Below, piece by piece: positions 32,676 through 64,000 of a DNA stretch of 64,000 nt. The DNA comes from Streptomyces sp. NBC_00775. Its GTDB lineage: Bacteria; Actinomycetota; Actinomycetes; Streptomycetales; Streptomycetaceae. The notes below the pieces were generated by a model, which was given only the letters and a program-made list of their open reading frames with translations, did no database searches and had not been told where the DNA came from. The stretch is taken from contig NZ_CP108938.1 in the NCBI RefSeq assembly GCF_036347135.1, positions 9,486,001 through 9,550,000 on the forward strand, read 5' to 3'. Made by a program: the position numbers and the translations under genes. The first letter of the stretch is position 1; each line of letters begins with the position of its first letter.

Positions 32676-32703
32676 GCCCCCGACACTACATGCGCATGCA
32701 TCC

Positions 32704-32717
32704 AATGCAAGTGCATT
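32704..32717. promoter_or_regulatory. MarR operator palindrome
   Basis: AATGCA at 32704-32709, two bases AG, TGCATT at 32712-32717: a perfect 6-bp inverted repeat in the divergent gap between the efflux gene and marR. Two further TGCA elements at 32697-32700 and 32691-32700 (TGCGCATGCA) lie alongside, suggesting more than one dimer site. Confidence 0.8.
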
Positions 32718-34008: not shown

Positions 34009-35172
34009 TCAGTTCAGGGCCGCGCGGCGGGTGGCGGCGCCGATGAGGGCGGCCACCGCCGCGAGCGCCGCCACGCTGGTGAGGGCCGCGGGCAGGGAGA
34101 ACCACTCCGCCATGAACCCGATCGAGGGTGGGCCGAGGAGCATGCCGCCGTAACCGAGCGTGGACGCGATCGCGACGCCGCTGGGGCCTGCCAGGGTGCC
34201 GGCGCGTTCGACGGCGACCGGGAAGATGTTGGCGAGCCCGAGTCCCGTGACGGCGAAGCCCAGCAGGGCCGCCCACAATGAGGGGGCGAGCGAGCCGAGC
34301 AGCATTCCGGCGGTGGCCATGGTGCCGCCCGCCACCAGTGTCCGGGTCCGCCCGAGCCGTTCCAGCAGGGTCGTCCCGCCGGCCCGGCCGATCGTCATGG
34401 CCAGGGCGAAGCACGTGTAGCCCGCGGCCGCGACGCCGGGGTGCGCGTCGAGGTCCTGCTCCAGGTGCAGCGCACCCCAGTCGGCCAGGGCACCCTCGCC
34501 GTACGCCGTGCAGAGGGCGATCAGGCCGAAGACGGTGACCAGTCCCCGGGTGCGGGTGTCCAGCCGGCGCGGGGTGTGTTCCTCGCGGTGCGGACGGTCC
34601 GGTGTCTTCACGGGTTCGTGGCGCAGCAGGGTGCGTCCCGCGAGCGCGGTCACCAGCAGGCCGATCACGGCCAGGCCGAGCAGATGGCGGGCGGGCGACA
34701 GGGAACCAGCGACCAGTCCGCCGAGCCCCGCGCCGATCATGCCGCCCAGGCTGAACGCGGCGTGGAAGCTGGGCATGATCGGCCGCCGAAGCACGGCCAC
34801 CAGATCGACAGCGGCACTGTTGAACGCCACATTGATCCCGCCGTAGGCCGCTCCAAAGATCAACAGCACCGCGCCCAGGGCCGGTACGGAGTGTGTCAGC
34901 GGCGGGAGCGCCACGCTCAGTGAGAGCAGGATGCCGCAGACGACGGTCACCGGGTGGTTGCCGAAGCGGCGGCACAGCCGTCCGGTGAGCGTCATCGTGA
35001 TCACCGCCCCGGCGGAGACGCAGAGGAGGGCGAGCCCCAGTTCTCCGGCCGAGGCGCCGGTCTGTTCCTTGATCGCGGGGATGCGGACGACCCAGCCGGC
35101 GAAGACGAAGCCGTCGAGGGCGAAGAAGGCGGTGAGGGCTGTGCGGAGTCGGGTGAGGTCGTTGTCCGGCAC
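34009..35172 (-). CDS. MFS transporter (uncharacterised)
   Basis: Up to 399 residues with about 12 helices. I use GTG 35172 (387 aa) because GTG 35208 falls inside an inverted repeat and neither has a good ribosome site. It begins TALTAFFALDGFVFAGWVVRIPAIKEQTG, with LTGRLCRRFGNHPVTVV as the MFS A-type loop, GAAYGGINVAFNSAAVD, and a second-half copy FALAMTIGRAGGTTLLERLGRTRTL. Such proteins resemble a family of uptake or efflux carriers of unknown cargo (YbjJ/FsrC-like). The inverted repeat over the start suggests a repressor. Confidence 0.82.
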   Translation of the reverse strand: MPDNDLTRLRTALTAFFALDGFVFAGWVVRIPAIKEQTGASAGELGLALLCVSAGAVITMTLTGRLCRRFGNHPVTVVCGILLSLSVALPPLTHSVPALGAVLLIFGAAYGGINVAFNSAAVDLVAVLRRPIMPSFHAAFSLGGMIGAGLGGLVAGSLSPARHLLGLAVIGLLVTALAGRTLLRHEPVKTPDRPHREEHTPRRLDTRTRGLVTVFGLIALCTAYGEGALADWGALHLEQDLDAHPGVAAAGYTCFALAMTIGRAGGTTLLERLGRTRTLVAGGTMATAGMLLGSLAPSLWAALLGFAVTGLGLANIFPVAVERAGTLAGPSGVAIASTLGYGGMLLGPPSIGFMAEWFSLPAALTSVAALAAVAALIGAATRRAALN

Positions 35173-35187
35173 GACGTTGTGCTTTCG

Positions 35188-35214
35188 GACTTTGTTTATT
35201 AGCGGCACAAAGTC
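35188..35214. promoter_or_regulatory. Inverted repeat at the MFS gene start
   Basis: GACTTTGT at 35188-35195 and ACAAAGTC at 35207-35214: perfect 8-bp arms with an 11-base AT-rich spacer. It overlaps the upstream candidate start codon (35206-35208), so transcription probably starts here and translation at 35172. Confidence 0.6.
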
Positions 35215-46294: not shown

Positions 46295-46430
46295 GGCGGC
46301 GCCGGGTGTTATGGCTCAGCGATGCAATGTGCTATGTCACACACCATTGTTGGGGCGGGTCGGTGTTGAGAAGGTGCCACACACGCCTCAACACCCGTAT
46401 CGAGGCGCATCCATCCGTGGAGGAGTCCAG

Positions 46431-48416
46431 ATGCGCTACCGCTTCGCGCTGCCCAGACGCACGGCCGGCGCCCTCGCCGTCTGCGTCACCGTCGCCGGCC
46501 TGCTGTCGACACCGGCGCTCGCGGCACCCCCCGCTCGGGACGGCACCACTGAGGTGACCGCGTCCCGGAAGGCGACGCCACCCCCGCCGCCGACCGGCTC
46601 GACGGCAAGTGCCGCCGACCGCCCCGCCGTACAGGGCCGACCGCTCACCGCGGCCCAACTGCCTCCCCTGGCGCCGACGCCCTCCCGGGCCCGTCCGAGC
46701 GCGGAAACCGGTACGAAGACCACACCGAAGGCCGCCTCCTGCACTCCGGCCGACTTCGCCGGCCGGACCGGTCCCGCACTCGTCGCGTTCGTCAAGGCCT
46801 CGACCACGGGCTGCGTCAACACCTTGTTCGCCGTCACCGGTACCGACGCCCGCGACATCTTCCGCGAGGCCCAGATGGTCACCCTGGCCAAGGCCTTCAC
46901 GCGAGAGGCGCAACGCTATCGAGGCGACAACTCGTCCCAGGTGTGGCAGCTCGTCCTGTTCCTGCGCGCCGGCTACTACGTGCAGTTCAACAACCCGTCC
47001 GACGTCGGCCCCTACAGTGCGACCCTCGCCGGAGCCACCACCCGCGGCCTGGACGCCTTCTTCGCCAACCGGCACTCCAGGGACGTCACCGCGGCGAACG
47101 GTGACGTGCTCGGTGAGGTCGTCATCCTCACCGACAGCGCCGACCAGCAGGCCCGCTATCTGAAGGTCTACCGGCGGTTGCTCAACGGGTACGACAGCTC
47201 CTATGACGCCATCGGCAGCATGCTCGCGGCCGTCAACGACGTCTACACCCCGCTGTGGCGCGGCAATTGGAACACGGACTACGTCAACGCGGTCGCCGCC
47301 GACCCGGGTATCGTCCGGACCCTCCACACGTTCGCGCTGGGGCACCTGGACCTGCTCGGGACCGACCGCGCCTACCTGGACTCCAACGCAGGGATGAACC
47401 TCGCCCGCTACGTCGAACACACGGCGCTGCAGGCGACGGTCCGGCCCCTGACCAAGGACCTGTTGAACGCGTCGGAGCTCACCGGCCCCACGGCCGGCCT
47501 GTGGATCGCGGTGGCGACGCAGGCGGACTACTACGACCACCTCAACTGCTCGTACTACGACGTCTGTGACCTGACGGGCCGGCTGACCAGGGCGGCCCTG
47601 CCGATCACCCACACCTGCGACGCGACCCACACCGTCCGGACCCAGGCGCTCACCTCCGACGAGCTCGACGCCGTATGCGCCAACTTGCTGGGCCAGGACC
47701 CGTACTTCGACAACCTCGTCAAGGACGACGGCCCCATACCCGGCCAGTACGTGTCGACCCTCCAACTCGTCGTCTTCGCCAGCCGCGCGGACTACCAGAC
47801 CTACGCCGGGGCGATCTTCGGCGTCAGTACGGACAACGGCGGCATCACCCTGACAGGAGACCCGTCCGACCCCGCCAACCAACCGGTGGCGATCATGTAC
47901 CAGAAGAACGTCGATGACGGCTTCACGGCCCGGATCTGGAACCTCAACCACGAGTACACGCACTTCCTCGACGCCCGCTACGACATGAAGGGCGACTTCG
48001 CCCAGCAGACATCGGTGCCGGACGTCTGGTGGATCGAGGGCCTGGCCGAATACGTCTCCTACGGCTACCGCGGCATCACCGACGAGCAGGCCGTCACGGA
48101 GGCGGGCAAGCACACCTACCGACTGAGCACGCTGTTCCAGAACACCTACGCCAACAGCGACGTGACCCGCACCTACCCCTGGGGCTACCTCGCGGCCCGC
48201 TACATGTTCGAGCAACACCCGACGGACATCCAGCGCATGCTCGCCCGCTTCCGCGTCGGCGACTACGCGGGCGGATACGCCGTCTACAGCTCCGACATCG
48301 CCACCCGCTACGACGCCGATTTCGACCAGTGGCTCACGGCGTGCGCCGCCGGCGCCTGCTCCACACCCGGCCGAGCCGGACTCCGCGCGGCGTCGGCGCA
48401 CGCCTGGACCCCGTAG
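46431..48416 (+). CDS. Secreted M9-family microbial collagenase
   Basis: A 661-residue exported protease with GGAGGAG 5 bases before ATG 46431. The signal peptide is MRYRFALPRRTAGALAVCVTVAGLL...ALA (about 1-30), followed by a Pro/Thr/Ala-rich propeptide (about 35-100). The activator region runs 110-380. The peptidase domain has the zinc motif HEYTH at 507-511 with catalytic Glu508, and the downstream ligand Glu536 in WWIEGLAEYVSYGYRG. MYQKNVDDGFTARIWNLNHEYTH is typical of M9 enzymes. No PKD or collagen-binding module follows, so it is a catalytic-core-only collagenase. It cuts collagen-like substrates; its role in soil nutrition is inference. A strong terminator follows. Confidence 0.92.
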   Translation: MRYRFALPRRTAGALAVCVTVAGLLSTPALAAPPARDGTTEVTASRKATPPPPPTGSTASAADRPAVQGRPLTAAQLPPLAPTPSRARPSAETGTKTTPKAASCTPADFAGRTGPALVAFVKASTTGCVNTLFAVTGTDARDIFREAQMVTLAKAFTREAQRYRGDNSSQVWQLVLFLRAGYYVQFNNPSDVGPYSATLAGATTRGLDAFFANRHSRDVTAANGDVLGEVVILTDSADQQARYLKVYRRLLNGYDSSYDAIGSMLAAVNDVYTPLWRGNWNTDYVNAVAADPGIVRTLHTFALGHLDLLGTDRAYLDSNAGMNLARYVEHTALQATVRPLTKDLLNASELTGPTAGLWIAVATQADYYDHLNCSYYDVCDLTGRLTRAALPITHTCDATHTVRTQALTSDELDAVCANLLGQDPYFDNLVKDDGPIPGQYVSTLQLVVFASRADYQTYAGAIFGVSTDNGGITLTGDPSDPANQPVAIMYQKNVDDGFTARIWNLNHEYTHFLDARYDMKGDFAQQTSVPDVWWIEGLAEYVSYGYRGITDEQAVTEAGKHTYRLSTLFQNTYANSDVTRTYPWGYLAARYMFEQHPTDIQRMLARFRVGDYAGGYAVYSSDIATRYDADFDQWLTACAAGACSTPGRAGLRAASAHAWTP

Positions 48417-49449: not shown

Positions 49450-51102
49450 ATGGGCGAGTACCACTACCACTACGTCGTTCATCAGAGCGACGGCGACCTG
49501 GCGCGCGGCGTCGTCTGGGCGGCCGCGCTCACCGGCGGCCCGGCCGCGGTGCCGTACCTCCGCGCGCTCGCCCTGCGGGTCGGCGGACCCGTGTCCGACG
49601 TGATCGAGGACCTCAAGCTCGCGGGCGCGGCGATCAACGCGCTCGCCGAGATCGACGATCCGGCCGCTCTGGAGGCGCTGTGGCGGTTGCAGTCCCGGAT
49701 CAAGCACCGGGCTCTGCGCAAGCAGCTCGACACCGCTCTGCTGACGGCCGCCGACCGGCAGGGCATCACGGCGGGGCAACTCGTCGAACGCAGCGTGCCG
49801 GACCACGGCCTGGCGTCGGACGGCTCGCTGGAGCACGAGCTGGGCGGATACCGGGTACGGGTGGCGATCGAGGACGCGGTGACGGTGCGGCTCACCTTCG
49901 CGGGCCCCGACGGGCGCCTGTTCCGTACGGCCCCGGCGGCGGTGAAGGACGGGTTCCCGGACGAACTCAAGCAGTTGAAAGCCCTGGCCAAGGAGGTACG
50001 GGGCACGCTCTCGGGCGAGCGGGCCCGCGTCGAGGCGCTGATGTCGGCCGGGCGTGAGTGGCCGTACGACGAGTGGTGCCGCTACTACCGCGACCATCCG
50101 GTCACCGGGGTCCTCGTCCGAGGTCTGATCTGGGAGTTCCAGCATTCGGACGGCGTGTGGCATGCGGCGGTGCCCATGACCGAACCGCCCGGCGAGCCGG
50201 CGCGCGCACGGTTGTGGCATCCGGTCAGGGCGTCGACGGACGAGATCAGGGCGTGGCGGGAGCGGATCGTCGACCAGCGGCTGCGGCAGCCGTTCAAACA
50301 GGCGTTCCGGGAGATCTATCTGCTCACTCCGGCGGAGGAGGAGACCGGCGTCTATTCCAACCGGTTCGCCGCCCACATCGTCCACTACCCGCGGCTCTAC
50401 GCGCTGTTCAAGGAACGCGGATGGCAGGCCAACTTCCTCGGCCGGTACGACGGCGGCTACGAGGGGAAGGCGCGGGCCGAGTTCGGCGACGGCGAGTGGC
50501 GGGCGTGCTTCTTCCACGAACCTGCCGCGGAGGACTACGGGGACTACGCGCCCGATCACGCCGCGACGGACCAGGTCCGGTTCGAGCGGCGTGACGGCCG
50601 ACGCCGGCGGGAGGTTCCGCTGGCCGAGGTTCCGCCGCTGGTGTTCAGCGAGGCGATGCGGGACGTCGATCTGTTCGTGGGCGTGACCTCGATCGCGGCC
50701 GATCCCGAGTGGGCCGACCGGGGCGAGGACCGCTATGCCGCGTACTGGCGGACGGCCACGTTCGGTGAGCTGACGGCGAACGCGGAGGTCCGGCGTGAGG
50801 CGCTGGAACGGATCCTGCCGCGCTTGAAGATCGCCGACCGGTGCGCGCTCGACGGCCGCTTCCTGGTGGTCCGCGGCGGGCTCCGTACGTACAGGATCCA
50901 TCTGGGCTCGGCCAACATCCTGATGGAGCCGGACGATTCCTACCTGTGCATTGTCCCGTCGCGTCCCAAGAGTGACGGCAAGGTGTTCCTGCCGTTCGAG
51001 GACGACCGGCTCTCGCTGATTCTCAGCAAGGCGTTCCTGCTGGCCGCCGACTCCAAGATCACCGACGAGACCATCCTCACGCAGATCAAGCGAGGTGGCT
51101 GA
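49450..51102 (+). CDS. DUF4132-domain protein (C-terminal part of a split gene)
   Basis: A 550-residue product starting at ATG 49450 without a visible ribosome site. It begins GEYHYHYVVHQSDGDLARGVVWAAALTGGP, a segment that in full-length relatives lies in mid-protein, and carries the DUF4132 core (SVPDHGLASDGSLEHELGGYRVRVAIED, FKQAFREIYLLTPAEEETGVYSNRFAAH) and the C-terminal DUF7737-like part (LPRLKIADRCALDGRFLVVRGGLRTYRIHLGSANI). The same frame stays open upstream of the start, over codons that read like a continuation (LTEGDPLCSSGQGPHTAW). No ribosome site and the missing N-terminus suggest the remnant of a frameshifted gene. Function of the family is unknown. Confidence 0.7.
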   Translation: MGEYHYHYVVHQSDGDLARGVVWAAALTGGPAAVPYLRALALRVGGPVSDVIEDLKLAGAAINALAEIDDPAALEALWRLQSRIKHRALRKQLDTALLTAADRQGITAGQLVERSVPDHGLASDGSLEHELGGYRVRVAIEDAVTVRLTFAGPDGRLFRTAPAAVKDGFPDELKQLKALAKEVRGTLSGERARVEALMSAGREWPYDEWCRYYRDHPVTGVLVRGLIWEFQHSDGVWHAAVPMTEPPGEPARARLWHPVRASTDEIRAWRERIVDQRLRQPFKQAFREIYLLTPAEEETGVYSNRFAAHIVHYPRLYALFKERGWQANFLGRYDGGYEGKARAEFGDGEWRACFFHEPAAEDYGDYAPDHAATDQVRFERRDGRRRREVPLAEVPPLVFSEAMRDVDLFVGVTSIAADPEWADRGEDRYAAYWRTATFGELTANAEVRREALERILPRLKIADRCALDGRFLVVRGGLRTYRIHLGSANILMEPDDSYLCIVPSRPKSDGKVFLPFEDDRLSLILSKAFLLAADSKITDETILTQIKRGG

Positions 51103-53352: not shown

Positions 53353-54468
53353 GTGGACATCACCATCTACAGGCTCGACGAGCTGGGCGACTCGCTGCGC
53401 AAGGCGTGGCACCAGGCGATGGACGAGTCGCCCGAATACGCCAACCCTTTCCTGGCGCCGGAGTTCGCGATCGGGATCGGCAAGTACCGCGGTGGGGCTC
53501 GGGTGGCGGTCCTGCACGAGAACGGGGAGCCCGTCGGGTTCCTCCCCTACGAGCGCAACGTCTTCGGCGTCGGCCGGGCCGTTGGGCTGGGCCTGTCCGA
53601 CTGCCAGGCACTCGTGCACCGTCCCGGGGTCACCTGGGACACCGAGGAGTTGCTGCGGGCCTGCGGGCTGTCGATCCTCGAGTTCGACCATCTCGTCGAG
53701 GAGCAGAAGCCGTTCGGCAGACATGTCACGGGGACGTTCGCCTCACCGGTGATCGACGTGAAGCCCGGCGACGGCAGCTACGCGGAGTGGCTGCGCGGCG
53801 CGTACCCGGGGCTGGCCAAGACGACGCTGAAGAAGGAACGCCGCGTGGGGCGTGAGGTGGGGGAAATGCGGTTCGTCTTCGACGAGCGCGACCCCGAGGT
53901 GCTGCACCAGCTCATGCAGTGGAAGTCCGCCCAGTACCGAAGAACGGGGCGGATGGACCGGTTCGCGCGGCCGTGGATCGTCGACCTGGTGGACTATCTG
54001 TTCCACGTCCGCGAGGAGCACTTCACCGGCGTCCTGTCCGTGGTGTACGCCGGTGACCGGCCGGTGGCCGCACACTTCGGGCCGAGATCGCGCACGGTCC
54101 TGGCGGCCTGGTTCACCGCGTACGACCCCGAATTCCACCGCTACTCGCCCGGGTTGATGATGCACCTTCGGATGGCCGAGGCGGCGGGTCGGAACGGCGT
54201 GACGCTCCTGGACCTGGGACGCGGTGACAAGGAGTACAAGGACTGGCTCAAGACCCGTGAACTGCGCGTGGGAGAAGGCTTCGCGGCCCGCCCCCACCCG
54301 GTGGCCGCGGCGCACCGGCTGTGGCGCAGACCGGTGCGGGGCCTGCGCAACACGGTCCTGGCCCATCCCAGACTGCGGGAACCCGCCGACCGGCTGCTGA
54401 AGACGGTCGGCACGCTGCGTACGTCGGGCCGTGCGGACCCCGGCGGAGCGGGACCGCGCGCACACTGA
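53353..54468 (+). CDS. CelD/FemAB-like GNAT acyltransferase at the biosynthetic cluster edge
   Basis: A 371-residue cytosolic protein starting at GTG 53353 (a GGAAGGGCGG lies rather far upstream). It has the two-GNAT-fold layout of the CelD/BcsL and FemAB-like acyltransferases: RVAVLHENGEPVGFLPYER in the first half; LKKERRVGREVG and FTGVLSVVYAGDRPVAAHFGPRSRTVLAAWFTAYDPEFHRYSPGLMMHLRMAEAAG in the second, followed by LDLGRGDKEYK. Such enzymes acylate amines or link amino acids to sugars or peptidoglycan. Here it lies next to fatty acyl-AMP ligase and PKS genes, so it may transfer an acyl group in tailoring. No proof. Confidence 0.8.
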   Translation: MDITIYRLDELGDSLRKAWHQAMDESPEYANPFLAPEFAIGIGKYRGGARVAVLHENGEPVGFLPYERNVFGVGRAVGLGLSDCQALVHRPGVTWDTEELLRACGLSILEFDHLVEEQKPFGRHVTGTFASPVIDVKPGDGSYAEWLRGAYPGLAKTTLKKERRVGREVGEMRFVFDERDPEVLHQLMQWKSAQYRRTGRMDRFARPWIVDLVDYLFHVREEHFTGVLSVVYAGDRPVAAHFGPRSRTVLAAWFTAYDPEFHRYSPGLMMHLRMAEAAGRNGVTLLDLGRGDKEYKDWLKTRELRVGEGFAARPHPVAAAHRLWRRPVRGLRNTVLAHPRLREPADRLLKTVGTLRTSGRADPGGAGPRAH

Positions 54469-54575
54469 ACTGGCTTCCCTGCTCCCGGCTTTCGCGCGAC
54501 GCCGGCCGGGTGTACGGGTATGCCGACGTCCTGACGAGAGATCAGGCGAGCAGCGTAGTGGATGTGTTCTGCGGC

Positions 54576-54593
54576 ACATACCAAGTGGTACGC
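54576..54593. promoter_or_regulatory. Gamma-butyrolactone-receptor (ARE)-like element
   Basis: ACATACC at 54576-54582, four bases AAGT, then GGTACGC at 54587-54593. The left half equals the consensus half-site of gamma-butyrolactone receptor boxes, and the right half matches GGTA(T/C)G. It also contains the inner palindrome TACCA-AG-TGGTA. It lies in the 480-bp gap before the fatty acyl-AMP ligase. Confidence 0.4.
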
Positions 54594-54726
54594 AATAGGG
54601 GGCATCGGACTCGTGCATCCAGATAAGCGCAACCGTGCACGCCGGTGACACGTTTCTCCAACTGGGCGTCAGATCATTTAATTGCCTATTGAAATACCCG
54701 GGGTTACATCTGTCGAGCCGAAAAGA

Positions 54727-54756
54727 CTTGCTATCGTCCTACTCATCGGTAGCAAG
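54727..54756. promoter_or_regulatory. Dyad in the fatty acyl-AMP ligase upstream region
   Basis: CTTGCTA at 54727-54733 and TAGCAAG at 54750-54756 are perfect 7-bp arms with a 16-base spacer. The pair also looks like a -35/-10 arrangement (TTGCTA...TAGCAA, 16 bp apart), so it may be a promoter that overlaps an operator. Confidence 0.45.
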
Positions 54757-54950
54757 CCGAACGGGGGGCACGAGGAGCCGGCGTACGCATCGCTGCTGCT
54801 CATCGGCGGGTTGGTCGTGTGGGCATGTCTGGCAAGGGGGCCAGGCGGCCACGGCGTCTTCGCGTACGCATCACGCGGCCGGTCTTCGAGCTCCAGTTTT
54901 CTGGCCCTCCCCTTTCCTCGCCCATTTATCCGAACAGGTGAGACTCGTCA

Positions 54951-56711
54951 ATGGCTCGATCCCTGGTCGATTTACTGACCGCGCACGCCTCGCAACAGCC
55001 CGAACGGACCGCCTACCGCTATCTCGTCACGGGCGACTGTGACGGAGAGATCCAGGACATCTCGTTCGGGCGTCTGGCCGGCCGGTCCCGGGCCGTCGCC
55101 GCCTGGCTGCAGGAGCGCGGTCTGGCCGGTTCCCGCGCCCTGCTGCTGTATCCGCCCGGTCTCGAGTTCATCTGCGGCTACCTGGGCTGCCTTTCGGCCG
55201 GAGTCGTCGCCGTGCCGGGCGTGCCCCCGCAGGGGCGGTCGCAGAACCATCGCGCCCTGACCCGGATGAAGCGGCTGATCGCCGACGCGGACGCCAAGGT
55301 GATCCTGGGCGGCCGTGAGGTGATCGCCGCTCTGGGCGCCATGTCGGAGCACCTGCCCGAACTGGCCGAGATCACCTGCGTCGCCACCGAGGACATCCCC
55401 GACGAGGCGGCCTGCTCCTGGCGCGAACCCGACCTCACCGCCGACTCGGTCGCCTTCCTCCAGTACACCTCCGGGTCCACCTCCGCCCCGCGCGGCGTGA
55501 TGGTGACCCACGGGAACCTGCTGGACAACGAGCGGGTCATCACGGAGCGGATGGGCCACACCCCGGACGTGATCGCCGAGTACGACCACGAACTGTTCGT
55601 CAGCTGGCTGCCCGTGTACCACGACATGGGTCTCATAGGCCCGGTCCTGAGCACGGTCTACCTCGGCGTGACCGCCACGCTCTTCTCGCCGCTGCACTTC
55701 CTGCAACAGCCCCAGCGCTGGCTGAGCGCCATCGACCGCTACCGTCCGCACACCAGCGGCGGACCCAACTTCGCGTACGAACTGTGCCTGAAGCACGCCA
55801 CCCCCGAACTCCTCGACGGCCTCGACCTGAGCCGCTGGAAGGTCGCCTTCAACGGCGCCGAACCGGTGCGGGCCGCCACCCTGCGGCGCTTCACCGAGAC
55901 CTTCGGCGCGGCCGGCTTCCGCCGCGAGGCCCTGTACCCGTGCTACGGCCTGGCCGAGGCCACCCTCATGGTCACCGGCAGCACGGTCGAGACCCCGCCC
56001 ACCCTCGTCGAGGCCGCCGGGACCGGGCCGCACGCCGGCGCGGCGGACGCGGCGGCGGTCAGCTCGGGCCGGCCCGGTCCCGGTATGACCGTGGTGATCG
56101 CCGACCCCGAGCGGCAGGAGCCGCTGTCCGAGGGAGAGGTCGGTGAGATCTGGGTCGCGGGCGCGAGCGTCGCCAAGGGTTACTGGCGCAACACCCTCGC
56201 CACCCGCGAGACCTTCCGGGCCACGCTGAAGGACCGCGAGGGCCGCTTCCTGCGGACCGGCGACCTCGGATTCCTGCGCGACGGCGAACTGTTCGTCACC
56301 GGCCGTCTCAAGGACCTGATGGTCATCGACGGACGCAACCACTACCCGCAGGACCTGGAACTGTCCGCCGAGATGTCCCACGGGGCGCTGCGCCCCGGCT
56401 GCACCGCCGCGTTCTCCGTGGACGGCGCAGTGGACAGCGGAGCTGACGACACGGTGGACGGCGCGGTGGAGGGCGAACAGCCCGTCATCGTCGCGGAGAT
56501 GGCCCCGGAAGCGGCGGGCGACTCCGACAAGATCACCGATCTGATCCGCAGCGCGATCGGCGAGGCCCACGGTCTGTCGGTGCGCGAGGTCGTGCTGGTC
56601 CACCCCGGCACCATCCCCAAGACGTCCAGCGGGAAGATCCAGCGCCACGCCTCCCGGGCTGCCTACCTGGCCGGGACCCTTTCGGTGGTCGGCGCGCCCG
56701 CCATGAGATGA
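54951..56711 (+). CDS. Fatty acyl-AMP ligase (FAAL)
   Basis: A 586-residue adenylate-forming enzyme starting at ATG 54951. Core motifs: FLQYTSGSTSAPRGVMVTHGNL (P-loop, about 169-190), SWLPVYHDMGLIGPVL, GAEPVRAATLRRFTETFG, YPCYGLAEATLMVTG, then TGDLGFLRDGELFVTGRLKDLMVIDGRNHYPQDLE. PVYHDMGLIG and the D-L-E ending after RNHYPQ are typical of FAALs, which load a fatty acid as acyl-AMP onto an ACP rather than onto CoA. A C-terminal Lys region (TIPKTSSGKIQRHASR) is present. The PKS that follows begins with an ACP, the expected acceptor. Codon 8 is TTA, the bldA codon. Confidence 0.95.
   Translation: MARSLVDLLTAHASQQPERTAYRYLVTGDCDGEIQDISFGRLAGRSRAVAAWLQERGLAGSRALLLYPPGLEFICGYLGCLSAGVVAVPGVPPQGRSQNHRALTRMKRLIADADAKVILGGREVIAALGAMSEHLPELAEITCVATEDIPDEAACSWREPDLTADSVAFLQYTSGSTSAPRGVMVTHGNLLDNERVITERMGHTPDVIAEYDHELFVSWLPVYHDMGLIGPVLSTVYLGVTATLFSPLHFLQQPQRWLSAIDRYRPHTSGGPNFAYELCLKHATPELLDGLDLSRWKVAFNGAEPVRAATLRRFTETFGAAGFRREALYPCYGLAEATLMVTGSTVETPPTLVEAAGTGPHAGAADAAAVSSGRPGPGMTVVIADPERQEPLSEGEVGEIWVAGASVAKGYWRNTLATRETFRATLKDREGRFLRTGDLGFLRDGELFVTGRLKDLMVIDGRNHYPQDLELSAEMSHGALRPGCTAAFSVDGAVDSGADDTVDGAVEGEQPVIVAEMAPEAAGDSDKITDLIRSAIGEAHGLSVREVVLVHPGTIPKTSSGKIQRHASRAAYLAGTLSVVGAPAMR
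54972..54974 (+). other. TTA codon 8 of the fatty acyl-AMP ligase
   Basis: The codon is read in frame as ATG-GCT-CGA-TCC-CTG-GTC-GAT-TTA. In streptomycetes TTA is rare, and only the developmentally controlled bldA tRNA reads it; its place at the start of a biosynthetic gene is a recurrent control point. Confidence 0.95.
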
Positions 56712-56990
56712 CCTGGACGACGGCACCCGCCGCCGGCACGCACCTTCGTGCCGGCGGCGGCATCGCCGTCGCCCTGGTCGTACGCCGGTTCCTTGGCCGT
56801 ACGACGCCGGAATCGCCGTACGTCGCCGAAGTCCGCCCACACCGGTCGCATGGTCCGTCCGTCCGCCGTCCGCAACCGCCGTGCACCCGTCGCACCGATC
56901 GCACCTGCTGTGCCAGCCGTATCGGCCGTATCCGTCGTACGGAAATCGCCTGAGCCCGAGTTCACGAGTTCACGAGGACACCTTTTCCAG

Positions 56991-59900
56991 ATGCCTGCGA
57001 ACGAGTCTCCGAAGCAGTTCCCCGAGATGTCCGTCACGACCTCCGAGGGTGTGCGGGCCTGGCTGGCGGCGGCTGTCGCCGAGGATGCCGGGATCGACCC
57101 GCCGGCCGTCGACCCGGAGCGGCCGATCGCCGAATTCGGTCTGGGATCACGGCAGTTGGTGACACTGGCCGCCGGCCTCTCGCAGCGGATCGGGCGGCCT
57201 CTGGAGCCGTCCCTCGTCTTCGACCACCCCACGATCGCGGAACTCGCCGAGGCGGTCCTCGGTGAACGGCCCGACGTCGCCGTCGCGGCGGACCAGGCGC
57301 CCGCGAACCCGGCCGTACGAGCCGTCGCACGGGCCGACGACGACATCGCCATCATCTCCATGGCCTGCCGCTTTCCCGGCGGCGCCGACGACCCCGAGGC
57401 GCTGTGGCGGCTGCTGGCCGCGGGCGAGGACGCCATCACCGAGGTGCCCGCGGGCCGTTGGGACACTCAGGGGCTCTACGACCCCGACCCGGAGGCCACC
57501 GGCAAGGCGTACACCCTGCGCGGCGGCTTCCTCGCCGACATCGACCGCTTCGACGCGCCCTTCTTCGGGATCTCGCCGCGCGAGGCCGCGGCCATGGACC
57601 CGCAGCAGCGCCTGCTGCTCCAGACCACCTGGGAGACGATCGAGCGCGCCGGGATCGTCCCAGAGACGCTGAACGGCAGCTCCACAGGCGTCTACATCGG
57701 CCTGTACGACAGCGGATACCTGGCCTCGGCCGGGCTGGGCCAGCTCGACGGGCATGTGGGCACGGGCTCGGCGTCCAGCGTGGCCTCCGGGCGCATCGCC
57801 TACACCCTCGGTCTCCAGGGCCCGGCGATCACCGTCGACACCGCCTGCTCCTCCTCCCTCGTCGCCCTGCACCTGGCCGCGCGGGCGCTGGCGAGCGGCG
57901 AGTGCGACCTGGCGTTGGCCGGTGGCGCGACGCTCCTGGTGACACCGCGCGGGCACGTCGAGTTCAGCAGGCTGCGCGGGCTGTCGCCGTCCGGGCGGTG
58001 CAGCCCCTTCTCGGCCGACGCGGACGGCGTGGTGTGGGCCGAGGGCTGCGGTCTGGTGCTGCTCAAGCGGCTCTCGGACGCACGCCGGGACGGTGACCGG
58101 GTCCTCGCGGTCGTCAAGGGCTCCGCGATCAACCAGGACGGCCGCAGCCAGGGCCTCAGCGCCCCCAACGGCCCCGCACAGGAACGGGTGTTGCGCGCCG
58201 CCCTCGACGCCGCCGGGCTCCGGCCGGACGACCTGGACCACGTCGAGGCGCACGGCACGGGCACCCGTCTCGGTGACCCGATCGAGGGCCGGGCGCTGGC
58301 ATCGGTGTTCGGTCCGGGGCGCCCCGCCGACCGGCCGCTCGGCGTCGGCTCCCTGAAGTCCAACATCGGCCACACCCAGGCCGCGGCCGGCATCGGCGGC
58401 GTCATCAAGACCGTCCTGGCCCTCGGCCACGAGCTGCTCCCGGCCTCGCTGCACGCCGACACCGTGACCGAGCACGTCGACTGGGCGGGCGGCGGCCTGC
58501 GTGTGCACAGCGGCGCCCAGGCGTGGCCGCGCGGCGGCGACCGGGTGCGGCGGGCCGGGGTGAGCGCCTTCGGGATCAGCGGTACGAACGCGCATGTCGT
58601 GCTGGAGGAGGCGCCGGAGGACCTGGCGCGGCCGGCCGGCGAAGCGCTGCCCGCGGAGCTGTCCGGAGAGCCGGCCGCGGAGTTGTTGCCTGGGGAGCCG
58701 ACCGCGGAACTGCCCGGAAAGACCCTGTTCCCGCTCTCCGCCCGGACCCTCCCAGCCCTCCGGGGGCAGGCCGCCCGCCTCCACGAACTGCTCACCGGAC
58801 AGCCAGAGTTGCCCCTGTCGACCGTGGCCGGAACGCTGACCCACCACCGCACGCACTTCCAGCACCGAGCCGTCGTCCAGGCGGGCAACCGCGACGAACT
58901 GCTGACCGCGTTGCGCGGACTCGCCGAGGCGCAGCCCGACACCGACACCGACACCGATGCCGACACCGGCACCGCCACTGACGCCGGCACCGCCACTGAC
59001 ACCGGCTTCGGCGTCGTCGTAGGCCCCCAACAGACCCTTCCCCCTGGGAAGTTGGCCTTCGTCTTCCCAGGTCAGGGTGCTCAGTGGACCGGCATGGCCC
59101 GCGATCTGCTCGACCGTGACCCGGTGTTCGCGGACGAACTCGACCGCTGCGACGCCGCCCTGCGCCCGTTCACCACCTGGTCGGTGGCCGCCGTCCTGCG
59201 CGGTGACGGGGGCGCCCCGCCCCTGGACCGTGTGGACGTCGTGCAGCCGGTCCTCTTCGCCGTGATGGTGTCCCTGGCCGCGGTGTGGCGGGCCCGTGGC
59301 GTACGGCCGGACGCGGTGATCGGGCACAGCCAGGGCGAGGTCGCCGCGGCCTGCGTCGCCGGGGCGCTCAGCCTCAACGACGCGGCGGCCGTGGTGGCCC
59401 TGCGCAGCCAGGCCCTGACCGAACTGTCCGGCACCGGCACCATGGCGGTCGTCGCCCTGCCGCACACCGAGGCCGAGGCCCGCCTCGCCGAAGCCGGCCT
59501 CGGCGGCCGGGTGACCGTCGCCGCCGTGAACAGCGGCCGCTCGACCGTGATCGCCGGTGAAGTGGAGCCGCTGGAAGCCTTGTTGGCCGCCCTCGACCAC
59601 GACCTGGTGTTCACCCGCCGCCTCGACGTCGACTACGCCTCCCACAGCGCCCAGGTCGAAGCGGTCCGGGCCACCGTCCTCGACGAACTCGACGGCGTCA
59701 CCACCTGCCCGACTTCCGTCGCCTGGTACTCCACGGTCACCGGTGAGCCGGTCACCGAGGAACTGGAGGCCGACTACTGGTACACCAACCTCCGCGAAAC
59801 CGTCCGCTTCGCGCCCACCGTGGAGCGCATGGCGGCCGACGGCTACCGCTACTTCGTCGAACTCAGCCCCCATCCCTCCCTGGTCACCGCCCTGCGCACC

Positions 59901-62900
59901 GTCGCCGAGGACTCCGGCCACGAGGATCTGGCCGCAATCGGATCGCTGCGCCGCGACGAGGACGGTCCCGCCTGCCTGGACCGGGCCGCCGCCGAACTCC
60001 ACGTCCACGGACGGAGGATCGACTGGCGCCGCCTGGTCCCCGACACCGCACCGGCGGACCTGCCGACGTACGCCTGGGATCCGCAACGCCACTGGATCGA
60101 GCCCGAGTCCGCTTCCGGCGCCCCCGGCCTCTTCGACCGCGCCGCGCACCCGCTGCTCGGCGTCCAGCTCCAGTCGGCGGACGAGACCCGCTGGACCTTC
60201 CGCAACGAGTGGTCCCCGGCCACCGCCGACTGGCTGCCCGACCACGCCGTGTTCGGGCGGACCGTGGTGTCGGGCACGACGCTGATGGAGCTGTGCCGTG
60301 CCGCGCTCGCCGTGGCCCGCCCGGACGCTCCCGGCGACGTCACCGACCTGCTCCTCCTCGCGCCTCTCACCCTGCCTCAGTCCGGCACGGCCGAGGTGTC
60401 CGTCGAGGTGGTCACCACCGGTCCCGTACCGGAGATCACCGTGCACAGCCGTCCGCGCGGTCAGGAGGTCATGGGCTGGACCCTGCACGCCACGGCGTCA
60501 GCGGCCGAACCCGCCCCGCTGACGGCGGACCGGCCACCGGTGTGGCCCGAGGCGGCCGAACCGGCCTGGACCGAGCGGACATACGAGCGGCTCAGCACGC
60601 TCGGCCTCGGCTACGGCCCCGCCTTCCAGGGCGTACGGTCGGCCGTCACGACCGGCGACGGCGCGCTGCTCGCCCGGCTCTCGTTGCCGTCCGTGGCGCG
60701 TGATGTGGCCGACCCGTACCCGGTCCACCCGGCCCTGCTGGACGCCGCACTGCAGGTGGCCGCCGCGTTCGAGGCTTCCGACGGCCGGGTGCTGCTGCCG
60801 GTCGCGGTGGGCCGCTGCGTCCTGCCGCCCGGTGGCGCGACCGACCTCACCGCGTCCGTACGGCGCACGGGTGGCTCCGGCACCGACCTCACGCTGGACG
60901 TGACGCTGTGGGACGCGGACGGTCTCCCGGCGGGCCGCCTGGAGGGCGTACGGCTGCGGGCCGCGGACCCGGCGGACCTGAACGGCGCCTCGGAGAACGC
61001 CCGGCACCTGTACGAGGTGGTGTGGACGGCCGTGGGCGATGAGCCCGCGGAGGCGCCGGGCCCCGAGTGGACCGTCCTCGGTGACCCCTCGGACCCGGAG
61101 CTCGCCGCAGCCCTGCGCGGCCTCGAAGCGGCGGGGATACAGGTGCGCGAGACGGGCGCCGACGTCGTCGCACGGTTCTGGCCGTGCCCGGCGGCGGATG
61201 CCGAACCGGCCGCCGCGGCACAGGATTTGGCGGCCACGGCCCTGGCCGAACTCCATGCGCTGATCGCCCTTCCGCAGGACGAGGCGCCCGCCCGGACCGT
61301 ATGGGTGACGCGCGGCGCGGTCGCGGCCGACGACCGGGACACCGTGCCCGGCCTCGCCCAGTCGGTGCTCTGGGGACTGGCCCGCAGCGCCCGCGCCGAA
61401 CACCCGGACCTCGGGCTGACCCTGCTCGACCTGGAAGGCTCGGATCCCGCCGACGTTCTGGCGGCCGCCGTCGCGTATGCCGACGAACCCGAACTCGCCG
61501 TTCGTGCCGGGGCGTTGCTCGTGCCCCGGCTGGTGCGGGCCCGTGCCCAGGACGCGTTGCGGACCCCTGCGGACGCGACCCTTGATGCGGTGCTGCCCGA
61601 GGAGACCCTCGCACCCGGTGGCCGCCCCACCCTCGTGCCCACCGACGGCACCGTCCTGATCACCGGCGGTCTCGGTGCCGTCGGCCGGCACATTGCCCGA
61701 CTCCTCGCCGAACACGGCGTCCCCCGACTGCTGCTGACGTCTCGTCAGGGGCCGGCCGATCCGCGCACCGACGAGGTCATCGCCGAACTGACCGCGCTCG
61801 GCGCCGAGGTGGAGGTCGCGGCCTGCGACATCGCGGACGCGTCCGCGGTGGCCGACGTACTCGGCCGTATCGGCGACGCGTTGCCGCTGCGCGGCGTCGT
61901 GCACTGCGCCGGCGTCCTCGCCGACGGGGTGGTCGCCGAGCTGACGCCCGAACGCCTCGCACGGGTACTGCGCCCCAAGGTCGACGGCGCCGCCCACCTC
62001 CACCGGCTGACCGCCGGCACACCGCTCGACCTCTTCCTGCTGGTCTCCTCGGCCGCCGGTGTCGTCGGCAACGCGGGCCAGGGCAACTACGCGGCGGCCA
62101 ACGTCTTCCTCGACCAACTGGCCCATCACCGAAGGGCCCTGGGCCTGCCCGGCCTCTCGGTCTCCTTCGGCGCGTGGGCGGGCGAGGGCCTCGCCGCCGA
62201 ACACGCCGACCTGGAGCGGATGGCCCGCCTCGGCCACCGCGCACTCACCCCCGACCAGGGCCGCGACCTCGTCGAACTCGCCCTGCGACGAGGCGCACCG
62301 CACCTGGTCGCCTGGGCCCTGGACCTGCCCCGGCTGCGCGACCACACGGCGGCCGCGGGCGACGGTACGGCGGCGCTGTGGCGCTCGCTGCTCCCGGCTC
62401 CCCGCACCGGCCAGGACGCCGGCGACGGCCTGGCGGACCGGCTGGCCCGGCTCCCTGAGACCGAACGCGCCGAACGCGTCCTGTCCCTGGTCCGCGAGGA
62501 GGCCTCCCGCGCCCTCGGCCTGCGCTCGGCCGACTCCGTCCGCCCCGACCAGCCGCTGCGCGAACTCGGCATGGACTCGGTGACGGCGGTCGAACTCCGC
62601 AACCGCATCGGCACCCGCATCGGCGCCAAGCTTCCCGCCACCCTGCTGTTCGACCACCCCACCGCCGCCCGGCTGGCCGAGTACCTGCTGACCACCGCCC
62701 TCGCGACCGGCGACCGCGCCACCCGTCGCACCGCTCCCCAAAAGCAGCCCACCCGCACGGCTGCGTCCGCGGCTGACGAGCCGGTGGCCCTGGTGGCCAT
62801 GGCCTGCCGTCTGCCGGGCGGCGTCAGCGACCCGGAAGACCTGTGGCACCTGGTCGCGGAGGGCCGCGACGCGGTGGGCCCGTTCCCGGCGGGACGCTGG

Positions 62901-64000
62901 GACGTGGAGGCGCTGTACGACCCCGACCCGGACGCCATGGGCAAGTCGTACGCCCGCGAAGGCGGCTTCCTCGACGACAACGACCTGGAGACCTTCGACG
63001 CGGGCTTCTTCGGGATCACCCCGAAGGAAGCGGCCGCCATGGACCCGCAGCAGCGCCTGCTGCTGGAGACGGCGTGGGAGGCATTGGAGCGCGCCGGGAT
63101 CGTGCCCGACGACCTCGAAGGCAGCACCACCGGTGTGTACGTCGGCATGTTCGGCAGCGACTATCTGTCGGGCTCCCGACTCGACCAGCTGGACGGGTAC
63201 GTCGGTACGGGATCGGCGCTGAGCGTGGCCTCGGGACGGCTCGCGTACACGCTGGGGCTCACCGGCCCGGCGCTCACGGTCGACACGGCCTGCTCGTCGT
63301 CGCTCGTCGCGCTGCACCTGGCCGCGCACGCGCTGCGGTCGGGCGAGTGCGACCTCGCGCTCGCCGGCGGTGTGACGGTGATGGTGACGCCGGGAACCTT
63401 CGTCGAGTTCAGCCGGCTGCGGGGCCTGTCGCCGACCGGCCGCTGCCGCTCCTTCTCCGACGACGCCGACGGCGCCATCTGGGCCGAGGGCGCGGGCATG
63501 GTCGTACTGAAGCGGCTGAGTGACGCGCGGCGTGACGGTGACGAGGTGCTGGCCGTGCTGCGCGGCACGGCCATGAACCAGGACGGCCGCAGCCAGGGCC
63601 TGTCCGCGCCGAACGGTCCGGCACAGGAGCGGGTGATCCGGCGGGCGCTGGAGCTGTCCGGGCTGGAGCCCGCCGACATCGACTACGTGGAGGCGCACGG
63701 CACGGGCACGACACTGGGCGACCCGATCGAGGCGAACGCCCTGTCGCAGGTCTTCGGTGACTCGCGCCCGCAGGACCGCCCGCTGCACCTGGGTTCGCTC
63801 AAGTCCAACATCGGGCATACACAGGCGGCTTCGGGCGTGGTCGGGCTGATCAAGGTGGTGCAGTCACTGCGCCACCGGACCCTGCCGCGCACCCTGCACG
63901 CCGACACGCCCAGCAGGCACGTCGACTGGGACGGCAGCGGGCTGCACCTGCTGCACCAGACGGCGGCCTGGCCGTCGTCGCCGCAGCGCGTACGACGGGC
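56991..64000 (+). CDS. Modular type I polyketide synthase, 3' end outside window
   Basis: An open frame of at least 2,336 codons from ATG 56991 to the window edge, with no stop. Domains by residue: ACP1 with phosphopantetheine Ser53 (GLGS); KS1 about 119-544 (Cys286, His421, His461); AT1 about 691-1000 with Ser780 (GHSQGE), RVDVVQ and YASH at 882-885, the two methylmalonyl-CoA signatures; DH from about 1053 (His1085, Asp1251); KR with ITGGLGAVG at 1558, Tyr1700 and no A-type Trp, so probably B-type; ACP2 with Ser1863; KS2 from about 1931 (Cys2101, His2236, His2276), incomplete. No enoylreductase is present. ACP1 should receive the fatty acid from the upstream ligase. Minus-strand frames across this region are shadows. 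Confidence 0.97.
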   Translation, partial: MPANESPKQFPEMSVTTSEGVRAWLAAAVAEDAGIDPPAVDPERPIAEFGLGSRQLVTLAAGLSQRIGRPLEPSLVFDHPTIAELAEAVLGERPDVAVAADQAPANPAVRAVARADDDIAIISMACRFPGGADDPEALWRLLAAGEDAITEVPAGRWDTQGLYDPDPEATGKAYTLRGGFLADIDRFDAPFFGISPREAAAMDPQQRLLLQTTWETIERAGIVPETLNGSSTGVYIGLYDSGYLASAGLGQLDGHVGTGSASSVASGRIAYTLGLQGPAITVDTACSSSLVALHLAARALASGECDLALAGGATLLVTPRGHVEFSRLRGLSPSGRCSPFSADADGVVWAEGCGLVLLKRLSDARRDGDRVLAVVKGSAINQDGRSQGLSAPNGPAQERVLRAALDAAGLRPDDLDHVEAHGTGTRLGDPIEGRALASVFGPGRPADRPLGVGSLKSNIGHTQAAAGIGGVIKTVLALGHELLPASLHADTVTEHVDWAGGGLRVHSGAQAWPRGGDRVRRAGVSAFGISGTNAHVVLEEAPEDLARPAGEALPAELSGEPAAELLPGEPTAELPGKTLFPLSARTLPALRGQAARLHELLTGQPELPLSTVAGTLTHHRTHFQHRAVVQAGNRDELLTALRGLAEAQPDTDTDTDADTGTATDAGTATDTGFGVVVGPQQTLPPGKLAFVFPGQGAQWTGMARDLLDRDPVFADELDRCDAALRPFTTWSVAAVLRGDGGAPPLDRVDVVQPVLFAVMVSLAAVWRARGVRPDAVIGHSQGEVAAACVAGALSLNDAAAVVALRSQALTELSGTGTMAVVALPHTEAEARLAEAGLGGRVTVAAVNSGRSTVIAGEVEPLEALLAALDHDLVFTRRLDVDYASHSAQVEAVRATVLDELDGVTTCPTSVAWYSTVTGEPVTEELEADYWYTNLRETVRFAPTVERMAADGYRYFVELSPHPSLVTALRTVAEDSGHEDLAAIGSLRRDEDGPACLDRAAAELHVHGRRIDWRRLVPDTAPADLPTYAWDPQRHWIEPESASGAPGLFDRAAHPLLGVQLQSADETRWTFRNEWSPATADWLPDHAVFGRTVVSGTTLMELCRAALAVARPDAPGDVTDLLLLAPLTLPQSGTAEVSVEVVTTGPVPEITVHSRPRGQEVMGWTLHATASAAEPAPLTADRPPVWPEAAEPAWTERTYERLSTLGLGYGPAFQGVRSAVTTGDGALLARLSLPSVARDVADPYPVHPALLDAALQVAAAFEASDGRVLLPVAVGRCVLPPGGATDLTASVRRTGGSGTDLTLDVTLWDADGLPAGRLEGVRLRAADPADLNGASENARHLYEVVWTAVGDEPAEAPGPEWTVLGDPSDPELAAALRGLEAAGIQVRETGADVVARFWPCPAADAEPAAAAQDLAATALAELHALIALPQDEAPARTVWVTRGAVAADDRDTVPGLAQSVLWGLARSARAEHPDLGLTLLDLEGSDPADVLAAAVAYADEPELAVRAGALLVPRLVRARAQDALRTPADATLDAVLPEETLAPGGRPTLVPTDGTVLITGGLGAVGRHIARLLAEHGVPRLLLTSRQGPADPRTDEVIAELTALGAEVEVAACDIADASAVADVLGRIGDALPLRGVVHCAGVLADGVVAELTPERLARVLRPKVDGAAHLHRLTAGTPLDLFLLVSSAAGVVGNAGQGNYAAANVFLDQLAHHRRALGLPGLSVSFGAWAGEGLAAEHADLERMARLGHRALTPDQGRDLVELALRRGAPHLVAWALDLPRLRDHTAAAGDGTAALWRSLLPAPRTGQDAGDGLADRLARLPETERAERVLSLVREEASRALGLRSADSVRPDQPLRELGMDSVTAVELRNRIGTRIGAKLPATLLFDHPTAARLAEYLLTTALATGDRATRRTAPQKQPTRTAASAADEPVALVAMACRLPGGVSDPEDLWHLVAEGRDAVGPFPAGRWDVEALYDPDPDAMGKSYAREGGFLDDNDLETFDAGFFGITPKEAAAMDPQQRLLLETAWEALERAGIVPDDLEGSTTGVYVGMFGSDYLSGSRLDQLDGYVGTGSALSVASGRLAYTLGLTGPALTVDTACSSSLVALHLAAHALRSGECDLALAGGVTVMVTPGTFVEFSRLRGLSPTGRCRSFSDDADGAIWAEGAGMVVLKRLSDARRDGDEVLAVLRGTAMNQDGRSQGLSAPNGPAQERVIRRALELSGLEPADIDYVEAHGTGTTLGDPIEANALSQVFGDSRPQDRPLHLGSLKSNIGHTQAASGVVGLIKVVQSLRHRTLPRTLHADTPSRHVDWDGSGLHLLHQTAAWPSSPQRVRR

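Follow-up and report, generated by a model that had tools for sequence, protein, structure and literature searches.

The right end of a 64,000-nucleotide stretch of the chromosome of Streptomyces sp. NBC_00775 (NZ_CP108938.1, positions 9,486,001 to 9,550,000; hereafter, the window) carries the beginning of a modular polyketide synthase (PKS) gene preceded by an AMP ligase gene. This locus raises two questions, i.e., whether it belongs to an undescribed pathway primed by a fatty acid, as proposed in an earlier note made from the sequence alone, and which compound the assembly line might release. The data reported below indicate that the locus is an orthologue of the foxicin cluster of Streptomyces diastatochromogenes Tu6028, and make it fairly probable that such clusters make an O-acyl-glyceraldehyde through a PKS primed by a fatty acyl-AMP ligase (FAAL), an ester-forming condensation (C) domain and a reductive release.

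The sequence to the right of the window was read from the same chromosome (one contig of 11.1 Mb), continuing the numbering of the window, and the predicted proteins were annotated by Pfam and NCBIfam profile searches. The region 53353-64000 contains three genes on the + strand, coding for an Acetyltransf_6 protein, the AMP ligase and a PKS whose frame is open at the window end. Together with the genes that follow, they are listed here, with identities to the Tu6028 copies:

53353..54468, + strand: FemAB/CelD-like acetyltransferase (Acetyltransf_6, Pfam PF13480, 140.7 bits), foxA orthologue, 83%
54951..56711, + strand: fatty acyl-AMP ligase, foxBI counterpart (matches in Pfam, in NCBIfam and to solved structures), 84%
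56748..64000, + strand, frame continuing to 71024 (chromosome 9557024): modular PKS, foxBII orthologue, 4758 amino acids (aa), 79.8%
71126-73600, + strand: acyl carrier protein (ACP)-thioester reductase (TR)-C-terminal domain without Pfam match, foxBIII counterpart, 824 aa, 77%
73597-74733, + strand: foxEI, alpha/beta hydrolase, 90%
74796-75575, + strand: foxEII, alpha/beta hydrolase, 83%

The FAAL and PKS genes are separated by 36 bases and the PKS gene and the next one by 101 bases, after which a 4-base overlap and a gap of 62 bases are found; from the FAAL gene to foxEII, this spacing forms an operon-like layout. The gene and domain order is also conserved in relatives.

The foxicin cluster has been reported in Tu6028 and in 21 further Streptomyces strains, with foxBI, foxBII, foxBIII, foxEI and foxEII adjacent, the same series of domains and identities of 73-96% (PMC5318452). 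In NBC_00775, all five genes are present in this order on one strand. The Tu6028 locus was retrieved from the record Streptomyces sp. Tue6028 (L035 among the species genomes), where frames of 371, 481 and 583 aa have the lengths given for foxA, foxGI and foxBI in Table 1 of PMC5318452, and, read from ATG codons, frames of 4807 and 945 aa correspond to the published foxBII and foxBIII. In the comparison with Tu6028 FoxBII, 3733 of the 4677 aligned PKS residues are identical, and the segment made of the C and FkbH domains (C-FkbH) is 77% identical. The two loci share the order FAAL-PKS-ACP/TR-FoxEI-FoxEII, the order of the domains, an unusual dehydratase (DH) motif in the first module and the acyltransferase (AT) motifs; they differ in that foxGI is located between foxA and the FAAL gene in Tu6028, where NBC_00775 has a gap of 482 bases without a gene, and in that NBC_00775 has two further hydrolase genes after foxEII. 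The similarity indicates that the NBC_00775 locus is an orthologue of the foxicin cluster, and hence that the pathway is already described, so that the claim of an undescribed pathway falls; a close match of the genes to the right with a known cluster is the very outcome that the earlier note had named as speaking against it. Reading on rightward also confirmed that the window contains the left end of a biosynthetic core. According to the foxicin paper, disruption of foxBII abolishes the foxicins (PMC5318452). Three other papers mentioning foxicin use the name as a pathway or antiSMASH label (two of them, on Nocardia, at 4% similarity), and the literature searches, made among open-licence PMC papers, brought up no revision of the foxicin pathway.

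The whole PKS has the order ACP-[KS-AT-DH-KR-ACP]x2-C-FkbH (KS, ketosynthase; KR, ketoreductase) in both Pfam and NCBIfam, and in Pfam, these domain families obtain whole-protein E-values <= 2.7e-40, which rules out chance matches. The domains falling in the window, all on the + strand, are the following:

57045..57257 (approximate boundaries), + strand: ACP1, loading carrier (Pfam PP-binding, with three stretches in the protein; GLGS at aa 131-134)
57339..58607 (right boundary approximate), + strand: KS1 (Pfam PF00109 from aa 198; TACSSS, HGTGT, IGHTQ)
59058..60014, + strand: AT1 (Pfam, aa 771-1089; GHSQG and YASH)
60135..60968 (left boundary approximate), + strand: DH1, HxxxGxxxxS variant (Pfam PS-DH to aa 1407; DHAVFGRTVVS at aa 1165)
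61647..62180, + strand: KR1 (Pfam, aa 1634-1811; GGLGAVG, YAAAN)
62487..62687, + strand: ACP2 (Pfam, aa 1914-1980)
62778..64000, + strand: KS2, cut by the window end (Pfam)

Beyond the window, they are followed by AT2, DH2, KR2 and ACP3, and then by the C domain (Pfam Condensation, aa 3801-4194) and the FkbH domain (aa 4411-4736). The KS, DH, KR and carrier motifs that were looked for are present in both modules. The GHSQG/YASH pair of AT1 is what we take to be a methylmalonyl-type motif. The HxxxGxxxxS variant of DH1 has been linked to the formation of a beta,gamma double bond (PMC5318452).

The ligase is closer in sequence to FAALs than to either CoA ligases or amino-acid adenylation domains. 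Among solved chains, it scores 492-494 bits with 7r7e-g (494 with 7r7g), 382 with 3kxw and 327-348 with the FadD32-type ones, versus 163 with the adenylation domain of McyG (4r0m), 149 with 6ulx and about 84 with gramicidin synthase chains. The chains 7r7e-g, which bear the depositor name "Polyketide synthase", are taken here to be PKS FAALs, and 3kxw, titled "Saframycin Mx1 synthetase B", is presumably a FAAL as well. In NCBIfam, the top match is with the start of a model covering nonribosomal peptide synthetases (NRPSs) and PKSs (510.3 bits), and the FadD32 FAAL model obtains 435.5 bits versus 137.7 for the amino-acid adenylation model. In Nocardia, the top FAAL match forms one open frame with a PKS (3355-6336 aa) in each of the 12 genomes examined, and a KS was found within this frame in the four genomes out of four inspected for it. 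As an example, Pfam gives FAAL-ACP-one module-C for the Nocardia exalbida frame (3366 aa) and FAAL-two modules-C for that of N. cyriacigeorgica (4943 aa), while three KS are present in that of N. wallacei. Since FAAL and PKS share one frame in these bacteria, it is strongly suggested that the predicted role of the ligase is the loading of a starter acid onto ACP1. In the published annotation, foxBI bears the label of an adenylation domain, whereas foxBIII is said to end in a thioesterase (PMC5318452); on the basis of the above comparison, the label of an amino-acid adenylation domain looks wrong, FoxBI being more readily understood as a FAAL.

The conservation of the releasing part was analysed on a family of 77 distinct loci, obtained from the best 80 of 89 matches in a scan with a foxBIII-type alignment; motifs were counted over 72 loci for C and FkbH, 77 for the reductase and ACP4, and 74 for FoxEI, two short FoxEI matches being left out. 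The FkbH domain of NBC_00775 scores 419 bits with TIGR01686, whose cut-off is 146.65, and across the family, the HAD phosphatase motif DxDxT is present in 71/72 loci and the acyltransferase Cys in 70/72. The C domain has HHxxxD in 70 of the 72 loci and is gapped at this position in the other two. The 824-aa protein consists of a carrier domain (ACP4), a thioester reductase (TIGR01746, 245.9 bits, above the cut-off of 213.35) and about 270 residues without any Pfam match, and its closest solved relative by sequence is MxaA (4u7w, 202 bits). The reductase has the Rossmann motif; its YxxxK motif plus its Ser are kept in 76/77 loci and the Ser of ACP4 in 71/77; throughout the family, the exceptions are gaps or unreadable rows, save one Arg at the ACP4 Ser. 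Therefore, also the thioesterase label published for the end of FoxBIII looks wrong, a reductase being suggested in its place. The domain behind the reductase is predicted as a small beta-barrel (predicted local distance difference test, pLDDT, 70.8), for which structure comparison gave no significant match. In FoxEI, a Cys replaces the Ser at the nucleophile elbow, and this Cys and the His are kept in 74/74 sequences; its predicted model (pLDDT 57.6) is similar to RhlA, whose entry title reports both thioesterase and acyltransferase activity, and to lysosomal and gastric lipases.

These features find precedents in other assembly lines. It has been described that vioprolide synthesis involves a FAAL-ACP-C-FkbH-T arrangement in which the C domain esterifies glycerate (PMC8949500), and the same architecture has been reported for corramycin (PMC10099666). 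The foxicin-type line shares with them the FAAL-primed acyl group, the succession of C and FkbH, and the glyceryl unit placed on the next carrier; it differs in having PKS modules between ACP1 and C, and in that the acylated glyceryl meets a reductase where vioprolide and corramycin have further NRPS modules. In malleicyprol synthesis, BurF contains an ester-forming C domain, a carrier and a reductase in a terminal module ACP-C-NEX-T-Red, where NEX resembles the N-terminal extension of FkbH proteins, and aldehydes trapped with DNPH (2,4-dinitrophenylhydrazine) were reported in vitro from mimics without a beta-keto group (PMC12304814). Also in BurF, the C domain joins a fatty-acid-primed polyketide to a carrier-bound hydroxy acid before reductive release; however, only an FkbH-like remnant is present, the hydroxy acid comes from other proteins and the beta-keto chain cyclises. 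Compared with BurF, the foxicin-type line appears as the complete version of this arrangement.

On the basis of these three precedents, ester formation on glyceryl-ACP4 followed by reductive release is proposed. The FAAL would adenylate a short acid with a branched chain, which from the example of foxicin A may be isobutyrate, and load it onto ACP1; two extensions with methylmalonate, each with reduction and dehydration, would then follow, module 1 giving a beta,gamma and module 2 an alpha,beta double bond, so that the chain on ACP3 might be 2,4,6-trimethylhepta-2,5-dienoyl. The FkbH domain would take 1,3-bisphosphoglycerate and put a D-glyceryl unit on ACP4, the C domain would join the chain to its hydroxyl as an ester, and the reductase, with NADPH, would release the O-acyl-glyceraldehyde, which FoxEI, FoxEII and the domain behind the reductase might process toward the final product. 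The acyl chain of foxicin A, as published, fits an isobutyryl starter and two methylmalonyl units, with the beta,gamma double bond formed first (PMC5318452). Thus, the domain order ACP and KS-AT-DH-KR-ACP-KS, the nature of the ligase and its priming of ACP1 proposed in the earlier note were borne out (the last as a strong suggestion), while two of its predictions were not supported: instead of the fatty acid starter, orthology makes a short branched acid likelier, isobutyryl being the proposal of the foxicin paper (PMC5318452), and the DH1 variant points to a beta,gamma double bond rather than to the 2-methyl-2-enoyl unit expected from module 1.

If the FAAL and reductase readings hold, the published route is wrong both at its start, amino-acid activation, and at its end, release by a thioesterase, and an acylated glyceraldehyde is the intermediate to be expected; this bears on the entry of a C3 unit from glycolysis into the biosynthesis of an aminoquinone siderophore. 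What is new here is the correction of two enzyme labels, a wider distribution and a concrete predicted release product.

Some points weigh against the proposed ester and reductive release. The foxicin A chain, in the structure given in the foxicin paper, is an amide on a C6N2 aminoquinone, with no glyceryl ester (PMC5318452), and the link between cluster and compound is one single-crossover mutant. The ligase remains below the cut-off of every NCBIfam FAAL model listed for it (975 bits in the case of FadD32). The motif of AT2, GHSLG/FASH, is not clearly a methylmalonyl one, and AT2 was called methylmalonyl by antiSMASH according to the foxicin paper (PMC5318452). HHxxxD does not show ester formation, this motif being common to amide-forming C domains; moreover, the models of FoxEI and of the domain behind the reductase are weak, and the flanking stretches compared showed no conserved ring-forming gene next to the core. 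As a guess, an O-to-N acyl transfer by FoxEI would reconcile the glyceryl ester with the foxicin amide.

In order to assess the distribution of the terminal segment (C-FkbH, ACP-TR and FoxEI, hereafter the cassette), the family of 77 loci was assigned to genera: 62 belong to Streptomyces, 13 to Nocardia, one to Amycolatopsis and one to another actinobacterium. C-FkbH is found in 72 loci (in the remaining five, the contig begins at the foxBIII gene or within it) and FoxEI in 76, the remaining one being cut at a contig end; FoxEII is present in 46 loci, in one as a short piece, and all 13 Nocardia loci lack it. Six of 61 related genomes, NBC_00775 among them, match C and FkbH together at >= 57%, and 50 show a match of some kind, the six strong ones included. 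In a survey of 247 Streptomyces genomes, where the cassette was defined as a match at E <= 1e-200, it was detected in 29 and can be called common. In 2017, the cluster was estimated to occur in 2.6%, and the foxicin paper reports it from no other genus (PMC5318452); contrary to this single-genus statement, the cassette is also present in Nocardia and Amycolatopsis. In four of 14 genomes (G065, G067, G068 and G072), the best FAAL match reaches no more than 40-48%; the positions can be compared for G067 and G068, and in both this match is not beside the cassette. Since the number of modules and the linkage to a FAAL differ among genomes, C-FkbH/ACP-TR/FoxEI appears to be the constant element and the part preceding it the variable one. 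It is tentatively suggested, as a possibility still short of probable, that C-FkbH, ACP-TR with the domain behind it, and the cysteine hydrolase are a portable terminal cassette of assembly lines in Streptomyces, Nocardia and Amycolatopsis, which have from one module to three or more and may have or lack a FAAL, and that this cassette caps polyketides as O-acyl-glyceraldehydes. If this were true, the foxicin pathway would need rewriting, and a large class of reactive glyceraldehyde esters would exist, of which the foxicins would be one downstream product.

Two further organizations were observed among these loci. In L067 (genome G068) and in genome G014, the cassette is located on longer PKS lines with several KS, without a FAAL match within the stretches fetched. 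In four Streptomyces loci (L066, L068, L070 and L072), a KS is followed by C-FkbH, and foxicin-type queries detected no AT, DH or KR between them; these lines may be of the trans-AT type or strongly diverged.

The published model remains the first alternative, although an unlikely one. It considers FoxBI as the A domain of an NRPS for an unusual amino acid, to which the chain is passed, with release by a thioesterase in FoxBIII and acetylation by FoxA, and it accounts for the amide and the nitrogen atoms of foxicin A (PMC5318452). The scores of the ligase, the position of FoxBI-type proteins upstream of ACP1-KS1 in one frame in Nocardia and the conserved reductase residues of FoxBIII disagree with it. 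The case of FoxA is less one-sided. The 7-28 kb (approximately) before the FAAL gene were compared in 15 genomes, a simple script based on GC content having been used to call the genes: the FAAL is common to all 15, no other gene occurs in more than four, and a FemAB gene lies upstream of the core in four, from adjoining to 26 kb away. A FemAB match exists in 13 of 23 genomes chosen for the cassette (one merely a 42-residue piece) and in 24 of the 61 related genomes, including all six with the cassette (a 42-residue piece in G024, 59% in G014); among the 18 that have it without the cassette, only G011 (80%) is near the usual 82-84%, the rest being at 48-63% or short. These looser counts were repeated in the 247 genus members, with a strict cut-off for FemAB as for the cassette, giving a close FemAB in 54, the cassette in 29 and both in 18. 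Hence, FemAB is commoner with the cassette (18/29) than without it (36/218), which counts for a tie or a shared ancestry. Nevertheless, in only two of the 18 genomes with both (NBC_00775 and G007) is it located <= 30 kb from the cassette; in the other 16, it is 0.2-10.4 Mb away on the same contig (eight genomes) or on a different contig (eight). Therefore, the earlier note was right in placing a FemAB-like gene beside the ligase, but its role as a tailoring partner is not upheld by this linkage, and the gene is better read as a chromosomal neighbour than as part of the core.

The flanks point in the same direction. The counterpart of foxTV (399 aa), which adjoins foxA in Tu6028, is at window 34009-35208 (- strand), with 18 kb of other genes between, and that of the published foxTIV (493 aa) is at 31182-32705 (- strand), even farther from the FemAB gene; this distance, of at least 18 kb, suggests that foxTV and foxTIV are backbone genes outside the foxicin pathway. 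In the about 10 kb after foxBIII compared in the 77 loci, the DeoR, aldolase, PhyH, AraC and methyltransferase genes have matches in L035 and/or L037 only, and FoxEII is the sole widely shared gene downstream of the core. As the flanking genes are poorly conserved among relatives, the published 57.6 kb foxicin cluster probably includes chromosomal flank on both sides.

Turning from the published model to the other alternatives, a lipid pathway not described before, which a long fatty acid would prime and in which FemAB would act as tailoring acyltransferase, agrees with the fact that FAALs often take linear fatty acids, numerous ones being activated by that of corramycin (PMC10099666); nevertheless, the orthology to the foxicin cluster, for which a C4 starter has been proposed, and the rare linkage of FemAB to the core make it improbable. 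A similarly low likelihood is assigned to the idea that the NBC_00775 copy, although intact, is silent, or that its product is a relative bearing another head group: according to the foxicin paper, the 21 further strains are not known to make any foxicin-like compound, and silence is suspected (PMC5318452), yet the catalytic motifs looked for are intact in NBC_00775, which argues for selection and not for decay. Finally, a malleicyprol-like butenolide or a tetronate, formed when a glycerate ester closes to a ring during release, through a Knoevenagel or Dieckmann reaction, recalls the ester-forming C, carrier and reductase found in the same order, with an FkbH-like remnant, in BurF (PMC12304814), but is very improbable, since a KR occurs in the terminal module of 67/72 loci (among the other five, L043 is cut by a contig end) and the terminal DH and KR motifs are intact in NBC_00775, so that neither a beta-keto group on the ACP3-bound chain, needed to drive such a cyclisation, nor a Knoevenagel butenolide is expected.

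Beyond the core, two extra alpha/beta hydrolase genes follow foxEII (continued numbering; chromosome 9561715-9563532):

75715-76530: third alpha/beta hydrolase
76603-77532: fourth alpha/beta hydrolase

Downstream of the fourth, a small frame and then genes on the opposite strand are found. In the 77 loci, both hydrolases have weak matches only (25-29%), and in S. olivochromogenes, copies of them (79% and 83%) are located directly upstream of the FAAL gene; the extra hydrolases (75715-77532) may thus travel with the cluster.

Farther to the left, the window contains a collagenase gene (Peptidase M9; 46311-48416), whose product has both M9 domains of Pfam, and a gene for a protein with DUF4132 and DUF7737 (49450-51102). 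Lastly, DNA resembling the PKS of the window occurs elsewhere in the genome, at about 6226000-6259000, 459500-464100 and 1845000-1855500, where further PKS clusters are probably located.

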